From the NCBI RefSeq assembly GCF_018390635.1, contig NZ_JAHBGE010000065.1, positions 1 through 64,000 on the forward strand: 64,000 bases of DNA. Direction: 5' to 3'. Numbering within the stretch: the stretch's first letter is position 1; each line of letters begins with the position of its first letter. The DNA is from Ancylobacter lacus (GTDB lineage Bacteria > Pseudomonadota > Alphaproteobacteria > Rhizobiales > Xanthobacteraceae). Under the pieces are notes generated by a model that saw only the letters and a list, made by a program, of their open reading frames with translations, searched no databases and was not told where the DNA came from. This document shows, piece after piece, positions 39,420-46,893 of this stretch. Position numbers and translations under genes: made by a program.

Positions 39420-39861
39420 TGCCCAACATTCGCACGTGCCTGTGGTCGCGTGCCGATCGGCGGAAGTCCGGACAAGAGGCCGGAAAGTCGCCAGGAAGAT
39501 CGGTAGCCGGAGGCGAAACCGGCGCACCTCGCTCTCAGCGGGGAACGTGACTTGAAGCAACGACGTAGCGGGCTTTTTTGGTCTCTGTCGGCCCTCCAAA
39601 GGTCGGGAAACTAAAGAGGCACTACTTCTTGCCGGGCGTGCGGATCGGGGTCCTCCCAGTCCAAGCGAAGGCATCGACCGAACGGGAGCGCTCTCCACAT
39701 GCGCTCGCGGACGTATCGCTGCCACGGCTCCAGTCCATACGATCGGCGGATCCTCCGTCGATCGCGAGCGGATGCACCGTCTCGCCACGACCGTGCCCTA
39801 CCGGGGCCGCGGGCGGGCTGTTGCATCCATGGTTGCTGCTTCGGGTCCTTGGGAGAGTGCC
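39420..39861 (+). ncRNA. speF-type 5' leader RNA element upstream of ornithine decarboxylase
   Basis: The roughly 440-nt leader is rich in structure and lies where Rfam describes the alphaproteobacterial speF element. Visible pieces include the nested stem GGCG-GAAGT-CCGG-N8-CCGG-AAAGT-CGCC (39459-39492) and a stem GCCGG-N8-CCGGC (39506-39523). There is also a 10-bp hairpin with one G-U pair, GATCGGCGGA/TCCGTCGATC (39741-39763), and a long-range GGATGCA/TGCATCC pairing (39770-39776 with 39822-39828). GCGGGCTTTTTTGG at about 39568-39581 could be a termination point. The exact element limits and ligand are not determined here. Confidence 0.6.
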
Positions 39862-40992
39862 ATGACCGACCGTATCCGCGAATTCCTCCGCAACCGCCGC
39901 GAGGATGGTCCCTGCGTCGTGGTCGACCTCGACGTGGTCCGCGCCAACTATGCCGCCTTCGCCCGCGCCCTGCCGGACACCCGCGTGTTCTACGCGGTGA
40001 AGGCCAACCCGGCGAAGGAGGTGCTGCGCGCCCTCGTGGAGCTCGGTTCCTGCTTCGACACCGCCTCGGTCGCCGAGATCGAGATGGCGCTGGCGGCCGG
40101 CGCCACCGCCGACCGCATCTCCTACGGCAACACCATCAAGAAGGAGCGCGACATCGCCCGCGCCTTCGCGCTCGGCGTGCGCCTCTTCGCGGTCGACGCG
40201 GTCGAGGAAGTCGAGAAGGTCGCCCGCGCCGCCCCCGGCGCCAAGATCTTCTGCCGCATCCTGTGCGACGGCGCCGGCGCGGAATGGCCGCTCTCCCGCA
40301 AGTTCGGCTGCGTGCCGGAGATGGCGGCGGACGTGCTGGAGCACGGCCACCGGCTCGGCCTGTGGGCCTATGGCGTGTCCTTCCACGTCGGCTCGCAGCA
40401 GAAGAACGTCGACGCTTGGGATTCCGCGCTGGCCTCCGCCTCGCAGATCTTCCAGGAGTGCGCGCTGCGCGGCCTGCCGCTGAGCCTCGTCAATCTCGGC
40501 GGCGGCTTCCCGACCAAGTACCTGCAGGACGTGCCGGCCGCCGAGGCCTATGGTCAGGCGATCTTCCGCGCCCTGTCGCGCCACTTCGGCAACCACCTGC
40601 CGGAAACCATCATCGAGCCGGGCCGCGGCATGGTCGGCGCCGCGGGCATGATCGAGGCCGAGGTCGTCCTCATCTCGAAGAAGTCCGAGGACGATCCGGT
40701 GCGCTGGGTCTATCTCGACATCGGCAAGTTCGGCGGTCTCGCCGAGACGATGGACGAGGCCATCCGCTACCCCATCCGCACCCCGCGCGATGGCGACGCG
40801 GTGGAGCCCTGCGTGCTCGCCGGCCCGACCTGCGACTCGGCGGACGTGATGTACGAGAAGGAGCCGGTCCTGCTGCCGGTCTCGCTCGCCATCGGCGACA
40901 AGGTGCTGATCGAGGCGACCGGCGCCTACACCACCACCTACTCGGCCGTGGCCTTCAACGGCTTCGACCCGCTCCGATCCTACGTGATCTGA
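39862..40992 (+). CDS. Ornithine decarboxylase (fold-type III PLP)
   Basis: This 376-residue eukaryotic-like ornithine/lysine decarboxylase forms putrescine from ornithine. PLP Lys47 is in FYAVKANP. Other features are GSCFDTASVAEIEMAL, SYGNTIKKERDI, GVSFHVGSQQ, LVNLGGGFP and IIEPGRGMVG, and the catalytic Cys lies in AGPTCDSADV. The start at 39862 (MTDRIREFLRNR) has GGGAGAG upstream. The frame is open to 39772 with in-frame ATGs at 39772 and 39829, but these lie in the leader. With homospermidine synthase at 44.3 kb it gives a putrescine-to-homospermidine route. Confidence 0.93.
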   Translation: MTDRIREFLRNRREDGPCVVVDLDVVRANYAAFARALPDTRVFYAVKANPAKEVLRALVELGSCFDTASVAEIEMALAAGATADRISYGNTIKKERDIARAFALGVRLFAVDAVEEVEKVARAAPGAKIFCRILCDGAGAEWPLSRKFGCVPEMAADVLEHGHRLGLWAYGVSFHVGSQQKNVDAWDSALASASQIFQECALRGLPLSLVNLGGGFPTKYLQDVPAAEAYGQAIFRALSRHFGNHLPETIIEPGRGMVGAAGMIEAEVVLISKKSEDDPVRWVYLDIGKFGGLAETMDEAIRYPIRTPRDGDAVEPCVLAGPTCDSADVMYEKEPVLLPVSLAIGDKVLIEATGAYTTTYSAVAFNGFDPLRSYVI

Positions 40993-44328: not shown

Positions 44329-45756
44329 ATGTCCGTTTGGCCGGTCTATGCCCAAATCGACGGTCCCATCGTGATGATCGGCTTCGGCTCGATCGGCCGC
44401 GGGACGCTGCCTCTTCTGGAGCGTCACTTCACCTTCGATAAGGAACGGCTGACGGTCATCGACCCGGTGGACGACAACCGCGCGCTGCTCGACGAGCGCG
44501 GCATCCGCTTCCTCCAGCTCGGCATCACCCGCGAGAACTACCGCGAGGTGCTGACGCCCCTGCTCACCTCGGGCGGGCGCGGCTTCGTCATCAACCTGTC
44601 GGTCGACACCGGCTCGGTCGACCTGATGAACCTCGCCCGCGAACTCGGCGCCCTCTACATCGACACGGTGGTCGAGCCCTGGCTCGGCTTCTACTTCGAC
44701 AAGGACGCGACCCCCGCCAGCCGCTCCAACTACGCGCTGCGCGAATCCATGCTGAAGGCCAAGCGCGCCAATCCGGGCGGTCCGACCGCGGTGTCCTGCT
44801 GCGGCGCCAATCCCGGCATGGTGTCGTGGTTCGTCAAGAAGGCGCTGGTCGACGTCGCCACCGATAGCGGCCTCCCCTTCGAGGAACCCGCCAGCCGCGA
44901 GGGCTGGGCCGAGCTGATGCAGCGCCTCGGCGTGAAGGGCATCCACATCGCCGAGCGCGACACCCAGCGCGCCCGCGATCCCCGCCCCTTCGGCGTGTTC
45001 GTCAACACCTGGTCGGTTGAGGGATTCGTCTCCGAAGGCCTGCAGCCGGCCGAACTCGGCTGGGGCACCCATGAGAAATGGATGCCGGAAAACGGCTACA
45101 CCCACAATTTCGGCTCCGGCGCCGCGATCTACCTGATGCAGCCGGGCGCCGCCACCAAGGTGCGCACCTGGTGCCCGAGCCTCGGCGCGCAGCACGGCTT
45201 CCTCGTCACCCACAACGAGTCGATCTCGATCGCCGACTATTTCACGGTGCGCAACGGCGCCCAGGTCGCCTACCGCCCCACCTGTCACTATGCCTACCAC
45301 CCCTGCAACGACGCGCTGGTGTCGTGGCACGAGATGTTCGGCAATGAGGGCCAGTTCTCCGGCGAGTGGAGCATTCTCGACGAGAACGAGATCGTCGACG
45401 GGCGCGACGAGCTCGGCGTGCTGCTCTACGGCCACGCCAAGAACGCCTACTGGTTCGGCTCGCAGCTCACCATCGAGGAAGCCCGCAACCTCGCACCCTA
45501 CCAGACCGCGACCGGGCTTCAGGTCACCTCCGCCGTGCTGGCCGGCATGGTGTGGGCGCTGGAGAATCCCGAGGCCGGCATCGTCGAGGCCGAGGAAATG
45601 GATTACAGGCGCTGCCTCGAGGTGCAGTTGCCCTATCTCGGCACGGTGAAGGGCTACTACACCGACTGGACCCCGCTGGCGGGCCGTCCCGGCCTGTTCC
45701 CGGAAGACCTCGACACCAGCGACCCCTGGCAGTTCCGCAACGTGCTGGTGCGCTGA
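44329..45756 (+). CDS. hss: Homospermidine synthase
   Basis: Hss (475 aa) makes sym-homospermidine from two putrescine molecules, or from spermidine plus putrescine, using NAD+ as a recycled cofactor. The Rossmann start is IVMIGFGSIGRGTLPLLERHF, followed by VINLSVDTGSVDLMNLARELGALYIDTVVEPW, SCCGANPGMVSWFVKKAL, ENGYTHNFGSGAAIYLMQPGA and TCHYAYHPCNDAL. GGAGGAG lies 10 nt before the ATG, and a weak TTGACG-N17-CATGGT promoter sits at 44235-44263. It depends on putrescine from the nearby ornithine decarboxylase. Confidence 0.96.
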   Translation: MSVWPVYAQIDGPIVMIGFGSIGRGTLPLLERHFTFDKERLTVIDPVDDNRALLDERGIRFLQLGITRENYREVLTPLLTSGGRGFVINLSVDTGSVDLMNLARELGALYIDTVVEPWLGFYFDKDATPASRSNYALRESMLKAKRANPGGPTAVSCCGANPGMVSWFVKKALVDVATDSGLPFEEPASREGWAELMQRLGVKGIHIAERDTQRARDPRPFGVFVNTWSVEGFVSEGLQPAELGWGTHEKWMPENGYTHNFGSGAAIYLMQPGAATKVRTWCPSLGAQHGFLVTHNESISIADYFTVRNGAQVAYRPTCHYAYHPCNDALVSWHEMFGNEGQFSGEWSILDENEIVDGRDELGVLLYGHAKNAYWFGSQLTIEEARNLAPYQTATGLQVTSAVLAGMVWALENPEAGIVEAEEMDYRRCLEVQLPYLGTVKGYYTDWTPLAGRPGLFPEDLDTSDPWQFRNVLVR

Positions 45757-45851
45757 GCTATGGCGGGAGGGCCCTCACCCCTTCCCGCCGCGCCCTGCCG
45801 CCGCGCCCTGCCAAGGGACGCCCTGCGTCCCGGCGAGCCGATGGCAACCTG

Positions 45852-45882
45852 AAAAAAGGCGGCGCCCGACGGGTGCCGCCTT
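45852..45882 (-). terminator. Intrinsic terminator of cbiM
   Basis: An 11-bp stem with one G-U pair (AAGGCGGCGCC/GGTGCCGCCTT, 45856-45866 and 45872-45882) is followed on the minus strand by TTTTTT (45857-45852 overlapping the stem end). It lies 60 nt after the cbiM stop, in the convergent hss/cbiM gap. Confidence 0.78.
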
Positions 45883-45940
45883 CCGCGTTTCAGGGCGGGT
45901 GCCGCGCCGCCGGGTCGGGCGCCTCCCCGGCCGTCCCGCC

Positions 45941-46618
45941 TCACGCCGCGTTGTAGAGCCGGCGCTCCAGCAGCGGGCTGCCGTTCAGCCGGTGCAGCGC
46001 CTTCGCCGCACCGAGCACGGCCAGGTCGACCAGCGGCTCCACCAGGATGACCAGCATGTAGGCCGCGCCGAACGAGCCGATCGCCGCCGCGTTCTCCACC
46101 GTGAAGCCATGGCCGTAGAAGGCCCAGAACGCCACCCACGCCACGATGCCGGCCTGATAGGCGGTGGAGAGCGCCAGCGCCTGCCGGTACTTCAGCTCCA
46201 CATAGGGCGTCGCCGGAGCGATGATCGCCCGCGACAGCGCGGTGAGCGCGAACAGCGGCACCAGCAGCGTGGTGACGTTCATGCCGTATTGCGGCAGGTC
46301 GAAGGGCGCGAAGAACACGCCCTGGATCAGCAGCCCGAGGGCGAGGCCGATCGCCGCCGGCGCCACCCCGAAGACGAGGAACAGCGTCGAGCCGAGGATG
46401 AGATGCACCTCGGACACCCCGACCGGATGGTGGGGCAGCACTTCGAAGAAGCTGAAGACCAGCGCGGTGGTGGCGAGGCTGCGCAGCGCCAGCGAGGCGA
46501 GGCCGCGCGTGTGCACCGTCTCCGCCGCGAGCTTCAGCGTGACCGCGCCGGCCGCGGCGGCGGTGACGTAGCCGAGCCAGATTTTTCCTTCGGCCACGAG
46601 GCCGGGTTCGATATGCAT
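45941..46618 (-). CDS. cbiM: Cobalt ECF transporter substrate-binding membrane protein CbiM
   Basis: CbiM (225 aa) is the metal-binding membrane subunit of the cobalt ECF transporter. The N-terminal MHIEPGLVAEG supplies the metal-binding loop (amino group and His2). Further signatures are SFFEVLPHHPVGVSEVHLILGSTLFLVFG and GVFFAPFDLPQYGMNVTTLLVPLFALT with about six helices. A cobalamin riboswitch precedes it, so B12 represses it. CbiN, CbiQ and CbiO are not next to it: the gene ends in its own terminator. Confidence 0.93.
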   Translation of the reverse strand: MHIEPGLVAEGKIWLGYVTAAAAGAVTLKLAAETVHTRGLASLALRSLATTALVFSFFEVLPHHPVGVSEVHLILGSTLFLVFGVAPAAIGLALGLLIQGVFFAPFDLPQYGMNVTTLLVPLFALTALSRAIIAPATPYVELKYRQALALSTAYQAGIVAWVAFWAFYGHGFTVENAAAIGSFGAAYMLVILVEPLVDLAVLGAAKALHRLNGSPLLERRLYNAA

Positions 46619-46669
46619 GCCGTTCTCCTTCGCCGTCTCACCCGACGGCTCGCGTTGGACCCATGCCCA

Positions 46670-46850
46670 TGGCCGGTCTCCTGACTCGCGGGTCCACGCT
46701 CGCTTCCGCCTTCCCGGCCCACGCCTTTCGGTCGCGGGCCAGTGGCGTGATGGAAGCTCGCTCGCCGCTCACAGTCGCGGGGGCGGTCGGGGCTTCGGGC
46801 TTACGCCCTTCCCCGTTCCCGTTTCATCCGGGCGAGTCGTCGCCCGGACA
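46670..46850 (-). promoter_or_regulatory. Cobalamin (B12) riboswitch
   Basis: Read on the minus strand, the 5' part has ATGAAACGGGAAC. Then come CCGCCCCCGCGACTGTGAGCGG (46787-46766 region), the B12 box GCCACTGG (46747-46740), a GGGAAGGCGG element and the 3' core GCGAGTCAGGAGACCGG (46690-46674). These are the conserved cobalamin riboswitch blocks in order. A perfect 8-bp hairpin, CCGGGCGA/TCGCCCGG, lies at the 5' edge (46829-46848). Between the aptamer and cbiM a GCCGTC/GACGGC hairpin (46633-46650) abuts the AAGGAG ribosome-binding site, suggesting translational control. Confidence 0.93.
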
Positions 46851-46864
46851 CCATGTGACCCTGC

Positions 46865-46893
46865 ATCACGGTCGTGCCGGGAGGTGCTGTCAA
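46865..46893 (-). promoter_or_regulatory. Candidate promoter of the cbiM riboswitch transcript
   Basis: Minus-strand TTGACA (46893-46888), a 17-nt spacer and CGTGAT (46870-46865) place transcription start at the 5' edge of the riboswitch. The -35 is perfect; the -10 matches three of six positions. Confidence 0.5.

Follow-up and report, generated by a model that had tools for sequence, protein, structure and literature searches.

What does a lone cbiM-like gene do behind a cobalamin riboswitch when its usual partner genes are missing? The question is raised by a locus of Ancylobacter lacus that lies within a stretch of 64,000 nucleotides (contig NZ_JAHBGE010000065.1, positions 1 to 64,000; hereafter the window). 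The first-pass annotation had described the gene as a solitary cbiM and had left two readings side by side, namely the use of a shared energy-coupling factor (ECF) module, or cobalt uptake by CbiM alone. The second of these readings is favoured by our analysis: the gene probably encodes a stand-alone cobalt(II) importer, i.e. an S-component of the CbiM/NikM fold that is independent of an ECF module. A shared module fails as a general explanation, for a CbiQ/EcfT-family match is lacking in 32 of the 52 genomes in which close homologues occur.

The features of the locus are collected in Table 1. The annotated riboswitch and the cbiM assignment both hold: the covariance-model search of the window returned a full-length aptamer well above the gathering score of 31.5, which was recovered again by a search of the whole genome, and the protein exceeds the PF01891 cut-off of 23.1 bits. 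The gene lies between a saccharopine-dehydrogenase-family gene and a GST gene, and neither cbiN, cbiQ nor cbiO adjoins it. The saccharopine-dehydrogenase-family gene (44329-45756) may be a homospermidine synthase, and elsewhere in the window the Rfam families ar45 sRNA and speF leader (39421-39725, plus strand) are followed immediately by a 406-aa frame (39772-40992) resembling ornithine decarboxylase. The promoter that had been proposed was not recovered, as no sigma-70-type site was found between 45700 and 47150 in a scan that alphaproteobacterial promoters may escape. The case of the gene's own terminator is divided: the fold is stable and is followed by UUUUUU after the stem, but it was not flagged by the consensus scan, which probably missed it because a mismatch interrupts the stem. 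As to a hairpin over the ribosome-binding site, the hairpin is present, yet with the end of its 3' arm 13 nt upstream of the ATG it lies beside the AGGAG and does not cover it.

Table 1. Features of the cbiM-like locus and cobalamin riboswitches of the genome.
Feature	Position	Strand	Details
Cobalamin riboswitch aptamer (RF00174)	46654-46870	minus	108.6 bits, E 2.9e-26, model 1-189/189
Leader hairpin GCCGTC-GGGTGA-GACGGC	46632-46649	minus	between aptamer and ribosome-binding site; counted on the sequence; probable expression platform
Ribosome-binding site AGGAG	46625-46629	minus	6 nt before ATG; read from the sequence
cbiM-like gene, solitary CbiM clade	45941-46618	minus	225 aa; PF01891 52.1 bits; starts MHIEPG
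Terminator-like GC-rich hairpin, then U6	45850-45895	minus	-23.0 kcal/mol, z -2.65
Cobalamin riboswitches of the own genome			precede the cbiM-like gene; CobW-CobN; CbtA-CobU-CobO; cobalamin-independent methionine synthase; ribonucleotide reductase large subunit

Of 66 riboswitch-bearing leaders, 49 have a hairpin whose end lies 10-18 nt upstream of the start codon; in 60 mononucleotide shuffles, the number of such leaders averaged 12.0 and never exceeded 18. In 42 of the 49, the loop region contains GGTG, and the stem varies on both sides (GCCGTC/GACGGC, TTCCGTC/GACGGAA, CCGCAC/GTGCGG, CCGCGC/GCGCGG). The conserved position together with the double-sided stem changes suggests that the hairpin serves as a translational expression platform. 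The loop of such a hairpin may pair with the aptamer. When the isolated window leader was folded, the hairpin was not favoured (z 0.06). Two nitrile hydratase-associated copies at which no riboswitch was found (L081, L088) also have a hairpin, placed 13-15 nt upstream of the ATG and with a different loop.

The protein is no typical CbiM. It scores only 22.7 bits against the NCBIfam cbiM equivalog model NF004905, whose cut-off is 173, and the PF01891 matches in 61 genomes (the own genome and 60 relatives) fall into two groups, one of 172-191 bits in 16 genomes and one of 47-70 bits in 25 genomes, which includes the window. Of 398 genomes sampled across the phylum, 45 are matched by a profile made from the low-scoring group (A1); 30 matches are strong, a partial gene among them, 11 with scores of 81-115 bits constitute a sister clade, and four genomes near the threshold were left out of the counts. 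At least 583 relatives were confirmed in a contig scan. The 80 named loci among the matches listed, which were found through two peptide patterns, belong by their titles mostly to Alphaproteobacteria, with some Gammaproteobacteria, Betaproteobacteria and Actinomycetota. In a tree of 83 rows, the ECF-type, sister and window-type sequences are separate with supports of 100/100, 96/92 and 89/86, the window-type clade thus reaching only 89/86; the identity of compared members of this clade to the window protein is 62-87%. Among the named loci, those nearest to the window belong to Ancylobacter. In the open-access literature that we searched, no paper was found that describes a solitary riboswitch-linked CbiM clade. 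Outside the counted carriers, several genomes (G113, G117, G121, G324, G345 and others) have weak PF01891 matches of about 26-71 bits, many of which start at profile position 2-15, and these possibly represent another solitary S-like family.

The lack of CbiN and CbiQ that had been noticed at the locus extends to the entire genome (4.63 Mb in 90 contigs, 99.64% complete). Its only PF01891 gene is the cbiM-like gene, a member of the low-scoring group, and CbiN (PF02553) was found neither here nor in any other of the 61 genomes searched. There is one CbiQ-family (EcfT) protein, and as its gene has an ABC ATPase gene directly upstream and a BioY-like frame, recognised by eye, downstream, it is the BioN of BioMNY. 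A dedicated CbiQ and CbiN as in group-I CbiMNQO systems were therefore not found, nor was a complete cbiMNQO elsewhere in the genome in a search via CbiM, CbiN and CbiQ, ABC ATPases being too common to single out CbiO. Beyond this genome, a search for the EcfT family (PF02361) found nothing in 8 of the 25 carriers among the own genome and its relatives, nor in 24 of 27 strong phylum-sample carriers, so that a shared EcfAA'T module in the same genome, as in group-II systems, is not what most carriers have; in the sister clade, PF02361 is absent from 6 of 11 genomes and a CbiQ-family protein is present in the other 5 of 11. With a CbiQ profile built on four proteins of the genus, no CbiQ was detected in the 1.5-kb flanks of any of 29 loci of the window's clade, versus 42 of 45 loci of the high-scoring ECF type (16/16 in the genus, 26/29 in the phylum); at the remaining three phylum loci, one of them short, no CbiQ neighbour was seen in the DNA examined.

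What alternatives exist to a stand-alone importer? The one that survives best, though we regard it as improbable, is that an unrecognised small N-like partner or another ABC ATPase encoded elsewhere is required. According to the accessible part of PMC7689651, the smallest set of CbiMNQO components that transports cobalt consists of CbiM and CbiN, and as a CbiN match is absent in a search that covered PF02553 and left NikN-like proteins aside, a replacement is conceivable. However, the widest cluster of neighbours, with the gene itself and overlapping frames excluded, comprises 17 of the 80 named loci among the matches listed. Moreover, PsCbiM, a cobalt transporter gene cloned with the nitrile hydratase of Pseudomonas stutzeri, is reported as the single added transporter gene, and its co-expression raised nitrile hydratase activity 2-4 fold in Escherichia coli (review PMC13243292, accessible part). 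Against this argument stands that E. coli itself, included in our control set, gave a CbiQ-family match.

Less likely still, and indeed quite unlikely, is that the protein works as an ordinary S-component with a borrowed ECF module, shared or dispersed, which in this case would be BioMN. The cbiM-like protein has an S-component fold, all 17 carriers of the genus, the own genome included, have at least one CbiQ-family protein, and the BioN-type EcfT would make borrowing possible for this one genome. This EcfT, however, is the only one of the genome and is encoded beside an ATPase gene and the BioY-like frame, and the carriers that have no EcfT-family match argue against borrowing. As a general explanation, a shared BioMN is ruled out by these 32 of 52 genomes without any CbiQ-family match.

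The predicted structure and the conserved residues agree with a stand-alone importer that retains the metal site of the family. The AlphaFold2 model (66 sequences, pLDDT 90.3) has the S-component fold with the extra N-terminal helix, and Foldseek with VIA-align placed NikM2 at the top (4m5b and 4m58; Z 19.4 and 18.2, the former over model residues 1-210), then CbiM (5x3x_M; 16.9), followed by the vitamin S-components with Z values of about 10-11.5. Neither the window protein nor profile A3 retrieved a relative when searched against PDB sequences, and the link is made via the predicted structure and via an alignment with the NikM-like proteins of the genus, in which VGVSEVH72 of the window protein falls on VGPSSVH. 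With the CbiM of the group-I CbiMNQO system (PDB 5X3X), the protein shares PF01891, the fold (over 194 residues), the N-terminal histidine and the loop histidine, but it has neither CbiN nor CbiQ, and the identity in the structural alignment is 15%. With NikM2 (4M58/4M5B), which we take to be the nickel S-component of an ECF system, it shares the best fold match and, through the alignment with the NikM-like profile, the same histidine positions, but its context is a cobalt context and it has no ECF partner.

His2, His72 and Asn114 are present in all of 116 compared sequences, 23 ECF-type rows of which had been chosen with a motif that includes His2, and Glu194 is present in all but one. The solitary forms are set apart by Glu4, Glu70 and Asp107, which are invariant in the 66 window-type and 11 sister sequences (77/77) and occur in none of 39 ECF-type rows. 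All of these 39 have Ser/Cys/Thr and Gly at positions 70 and 107, a count that leaves out six of 29 phylum loci in which, by eye, Ser and Gly are found as well; furthermore, the acid of the window protein is at position 4, not 5 as in ECF-type CbiM. His63 is found in 76 of 77 solitary-type versus 8 of 39 ECF-type sequences. The invariance of Glu70 and His72 in the named loci is partly due to selection, as one of the two search patterns covers positions 67-75, and in the profile-based phylum set, window included, both residues are found in 30 of 30 sequences, the frames there having been located with a His2 and Glu4 motif that all 29 loci passed. His2 comes immediately after the start methionine in all 77 solitary-type rows and in most ECF-type genes of the phylum, and 15 of 16 ECF-type genes of the genus read Met-Ala-His or Val-Ala-His, with an alanine between the start and the histidine. 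In the genus NikM-like proteins of L001-L010 and L012-L016, the mature N-terminus would be Ala-His if the methionine is removed. The loop histidine at position 72 is presumably a metal ligand throughout the CbiM/NikM family. Strands 63-66 and 69-72 are neighbours in the model, and pairing of the two as a hairpin would place His63 opposite His72. According to the accessible part of PMC6828968, the metal is bound by the first two residues in CbiM/NikM.

Cobalt as the substrate is indicated twice, by the B12 riboswitch and by the association with cobalt-type nitrile hydratases (NHases). A riboswitch lies directly upstream of the gene in all 13 genus carriers tested, in 7 of 8 other relatives, at 26 of 29 full-length phylum loci and at 7 of 11 sister-clade loci. 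Among the matches listed it precedes the gene at 65 of the 80 named loci, 45 of them recognised by the leader motif and 20 by model R1 after the regular expression for the motif had missed them, with L122 being weak at 20.9 bits. CbiC is found in 28 of 30 carriers versus 122 of 368 other genomes (Fisher 5e-11, without correction for shared ancestry), and it lies within 10 kb of the clade gene in 13 of the 28. Of the two carriers that have no CbiC, G435 has a CobN-like frame, recognised by eye, beside the clade gene, and G354 has the gene beside TonB-receptor-like and BtuF-like genes. At this latter locus (L195, 5521-6758, minus strand), the clade gene and the TonB-receptor-like frame each have their own riboswitch; G354 is likely a B12 salvager, in which the gene is not explained by a pure role in B12 synthesis. 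The own genome contains the corrin genes CbiC, CobN, CobW, CobU and CobO as well as five cobalamin riboswitches, as detected by the whole-genome search (Table 1). At L067 (G000, C2), two divergent riboswitches (96344-96554, minus strand, and 96864-97078, plus strand) head CobW-CobN and CbtA-CobU-CobO, and similar back-to-back pairs occur in several members of the genus.

NHase genes are located upstream of the clade gene at 8 of the 80 named loci among the matches listed and at 2 of 29 phylum loci. They all carry the motif CTLCSC, which denotes the cobalt form of the enzyme (PMC2667541, accessible part), and a riboswitch was found at none of them; conversely, CTLCSC occurs at none of the 65 riboswitch-bearing named loci among the matches listed, in the DNA examined. 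The scanned NHase loci comprise an amidase or CobW-like gene, the alpha and beta subunits and an accessory protein, as confirmed by Pfam on selected proteins of L081, L115, L124 and L135, and at L115 an aquaporin-family gene lies between the NHase genes and the clade gene. The eight NHase loci account for more than half of the 15 named loci, among the matches listed, that have no directly upstream riboswitch. As to the others, L127 is a cut locus, L139 and L141 have riboswitch-model matches 2.2 and 5.5 kb upstream, L130 lies amid corrin methyltransferase genes recognised by eye, and at L094, L118 and L138 the DNA examined contains no riboswitch and no NHase genes. Three phylum loci are riboswitch-free, two of which are the NHase loci, while the third, L173, again has neither in the DNA examined; together with L094, L118 and L138 it counts against the proposed reading. 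On the tree, the NHase association requires at least four changes, two of which are forced by well-supported branches. The same NHase operon with the clade gene, likewise of the cobalt type and with no riboswitch found, is present on annotated plasmids of Klebsiella pneumoniae and Rhizobium, and on pSymB of Sinorhizobium meliloti a clade copy lies behind a riboswitch. Enterobacterial plasmids with a clade member include L179 (K. pneumoniae; amidase and NHase genes) and H3 (Citrobacter freundii).

These contexts bear on two further alternatives. Import of a corrinoid or B12 precursor instead of cobalt ions would agree with the upstream cobalamin riboswitch and with the surroundings of the gene in G354, but NHases use non-corrin cobalt and their operons have the gene without a riboswitch, the histidines of the NikM/CbiM site are retained, and most carriers have CbiC, which makes such an import very unlikely. 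A nickel transporter, as the nearest solved folds might imply, is just as hard to believe in view of the B12 riboswitch and cobalt NHase contexts and of the separate high-scoring NikM-like gene that 16 of 60 relatives have beside CbiQ, which is the better nickel candidate.

The distribution of another candidate is a further argument for cobalt import. CbtAB is a predicted cobalt transporter of an unrelated Pfam family (PF09490), and in the own genome CbtA likewise lies behind a B12 riboswitch; its presence there, beside that of two NicO-family frames (putative transporters), is in turn a point against. Across the genus, CbtA complements the cbiM-like gene, being present in 13 of 13 non-carriers versus 8 of 17 carriers (Fisher p 0.003), and over the 61 genomes in 26 of 36 non-carriers versus 9 of 25 carriers (p 0.008), both values being uncorrected for shared ancestry. 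In G047 (C74:8085-9681), a CbiM-like gene is directly followed by CbtA, with a riboswitch 2.2 kb upstream, and the two are candidate cobalt importers side by side.

How, then, could a stand-alone importer work? From fold, residues and contexts we infer Co2+ as the substrate, transport without an ATP module, and repression by adenosylcobalamin. On the periplasmic side, Met1-His2 at the N-terminus and His72 would capture Co2+ in the manner of NikM/CbiM. Glu4, His63, Glu70 and Asp107 probably reshape this site such that the ion can be released inwards without CbiN, CbiQ and CbiO. Adenosylcobalamin that fills the riboswitch would switch off synthesis, probably at the level of translation via the hairpin that abuts the ribosome-binding site, and this control would match cobalt uptake to the demand for B12. 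Proteins of this kind in relatives appear to supply another cobalt enzyme, the cobalt-type NHase. Whether this can be extended to the whole group seems to us evenly balanced: the clade would then be an ancient and widespread family of self-sufficient Co2+ importers, in which Glu70, Asp107, Glu4 and His63 replace ATP, EcfT and CbiN, and which feeds B12 synthesis as well as NHase, with control swapped between riboswitch and operon.

Two reported systems come close. The solitary S-component BioY, which Finkenwirth in 2013 reportedly found to transport biotin without an ECF module, resembles the protein predicted here in lacking such a module, but it transports biotin and not a metal and belongs to a different S family. 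PsCbiM of P. stutzeri CGMCC 22915 is, like the NHase-associated clade members, a single CbiM together with a cobalt NHase, and by its description it is a candidate clade member; the reversed beta-alpha-accessory order of this strain is also found at L100, L124 and L135, and a riboswitch is not mentioned for PsCbiM in the accessible part of PMC13243292.

A clade with many EcfT-free genomes bears directly on the question of whether S-components can transport their substrates in the absence of an ATP-driven ECF module. The Glu70/Asp107 signature separates this clade from the ECF-dependent forms and is open to mutation. If the reading as a stand-alone importer is true, the label “energy-coupling factor ABC transporter permease”, under which databases list these proteins, needs correcting, and a one-gene cobalt importer would be available for the engineering of B12 and nitrile hydratase production.
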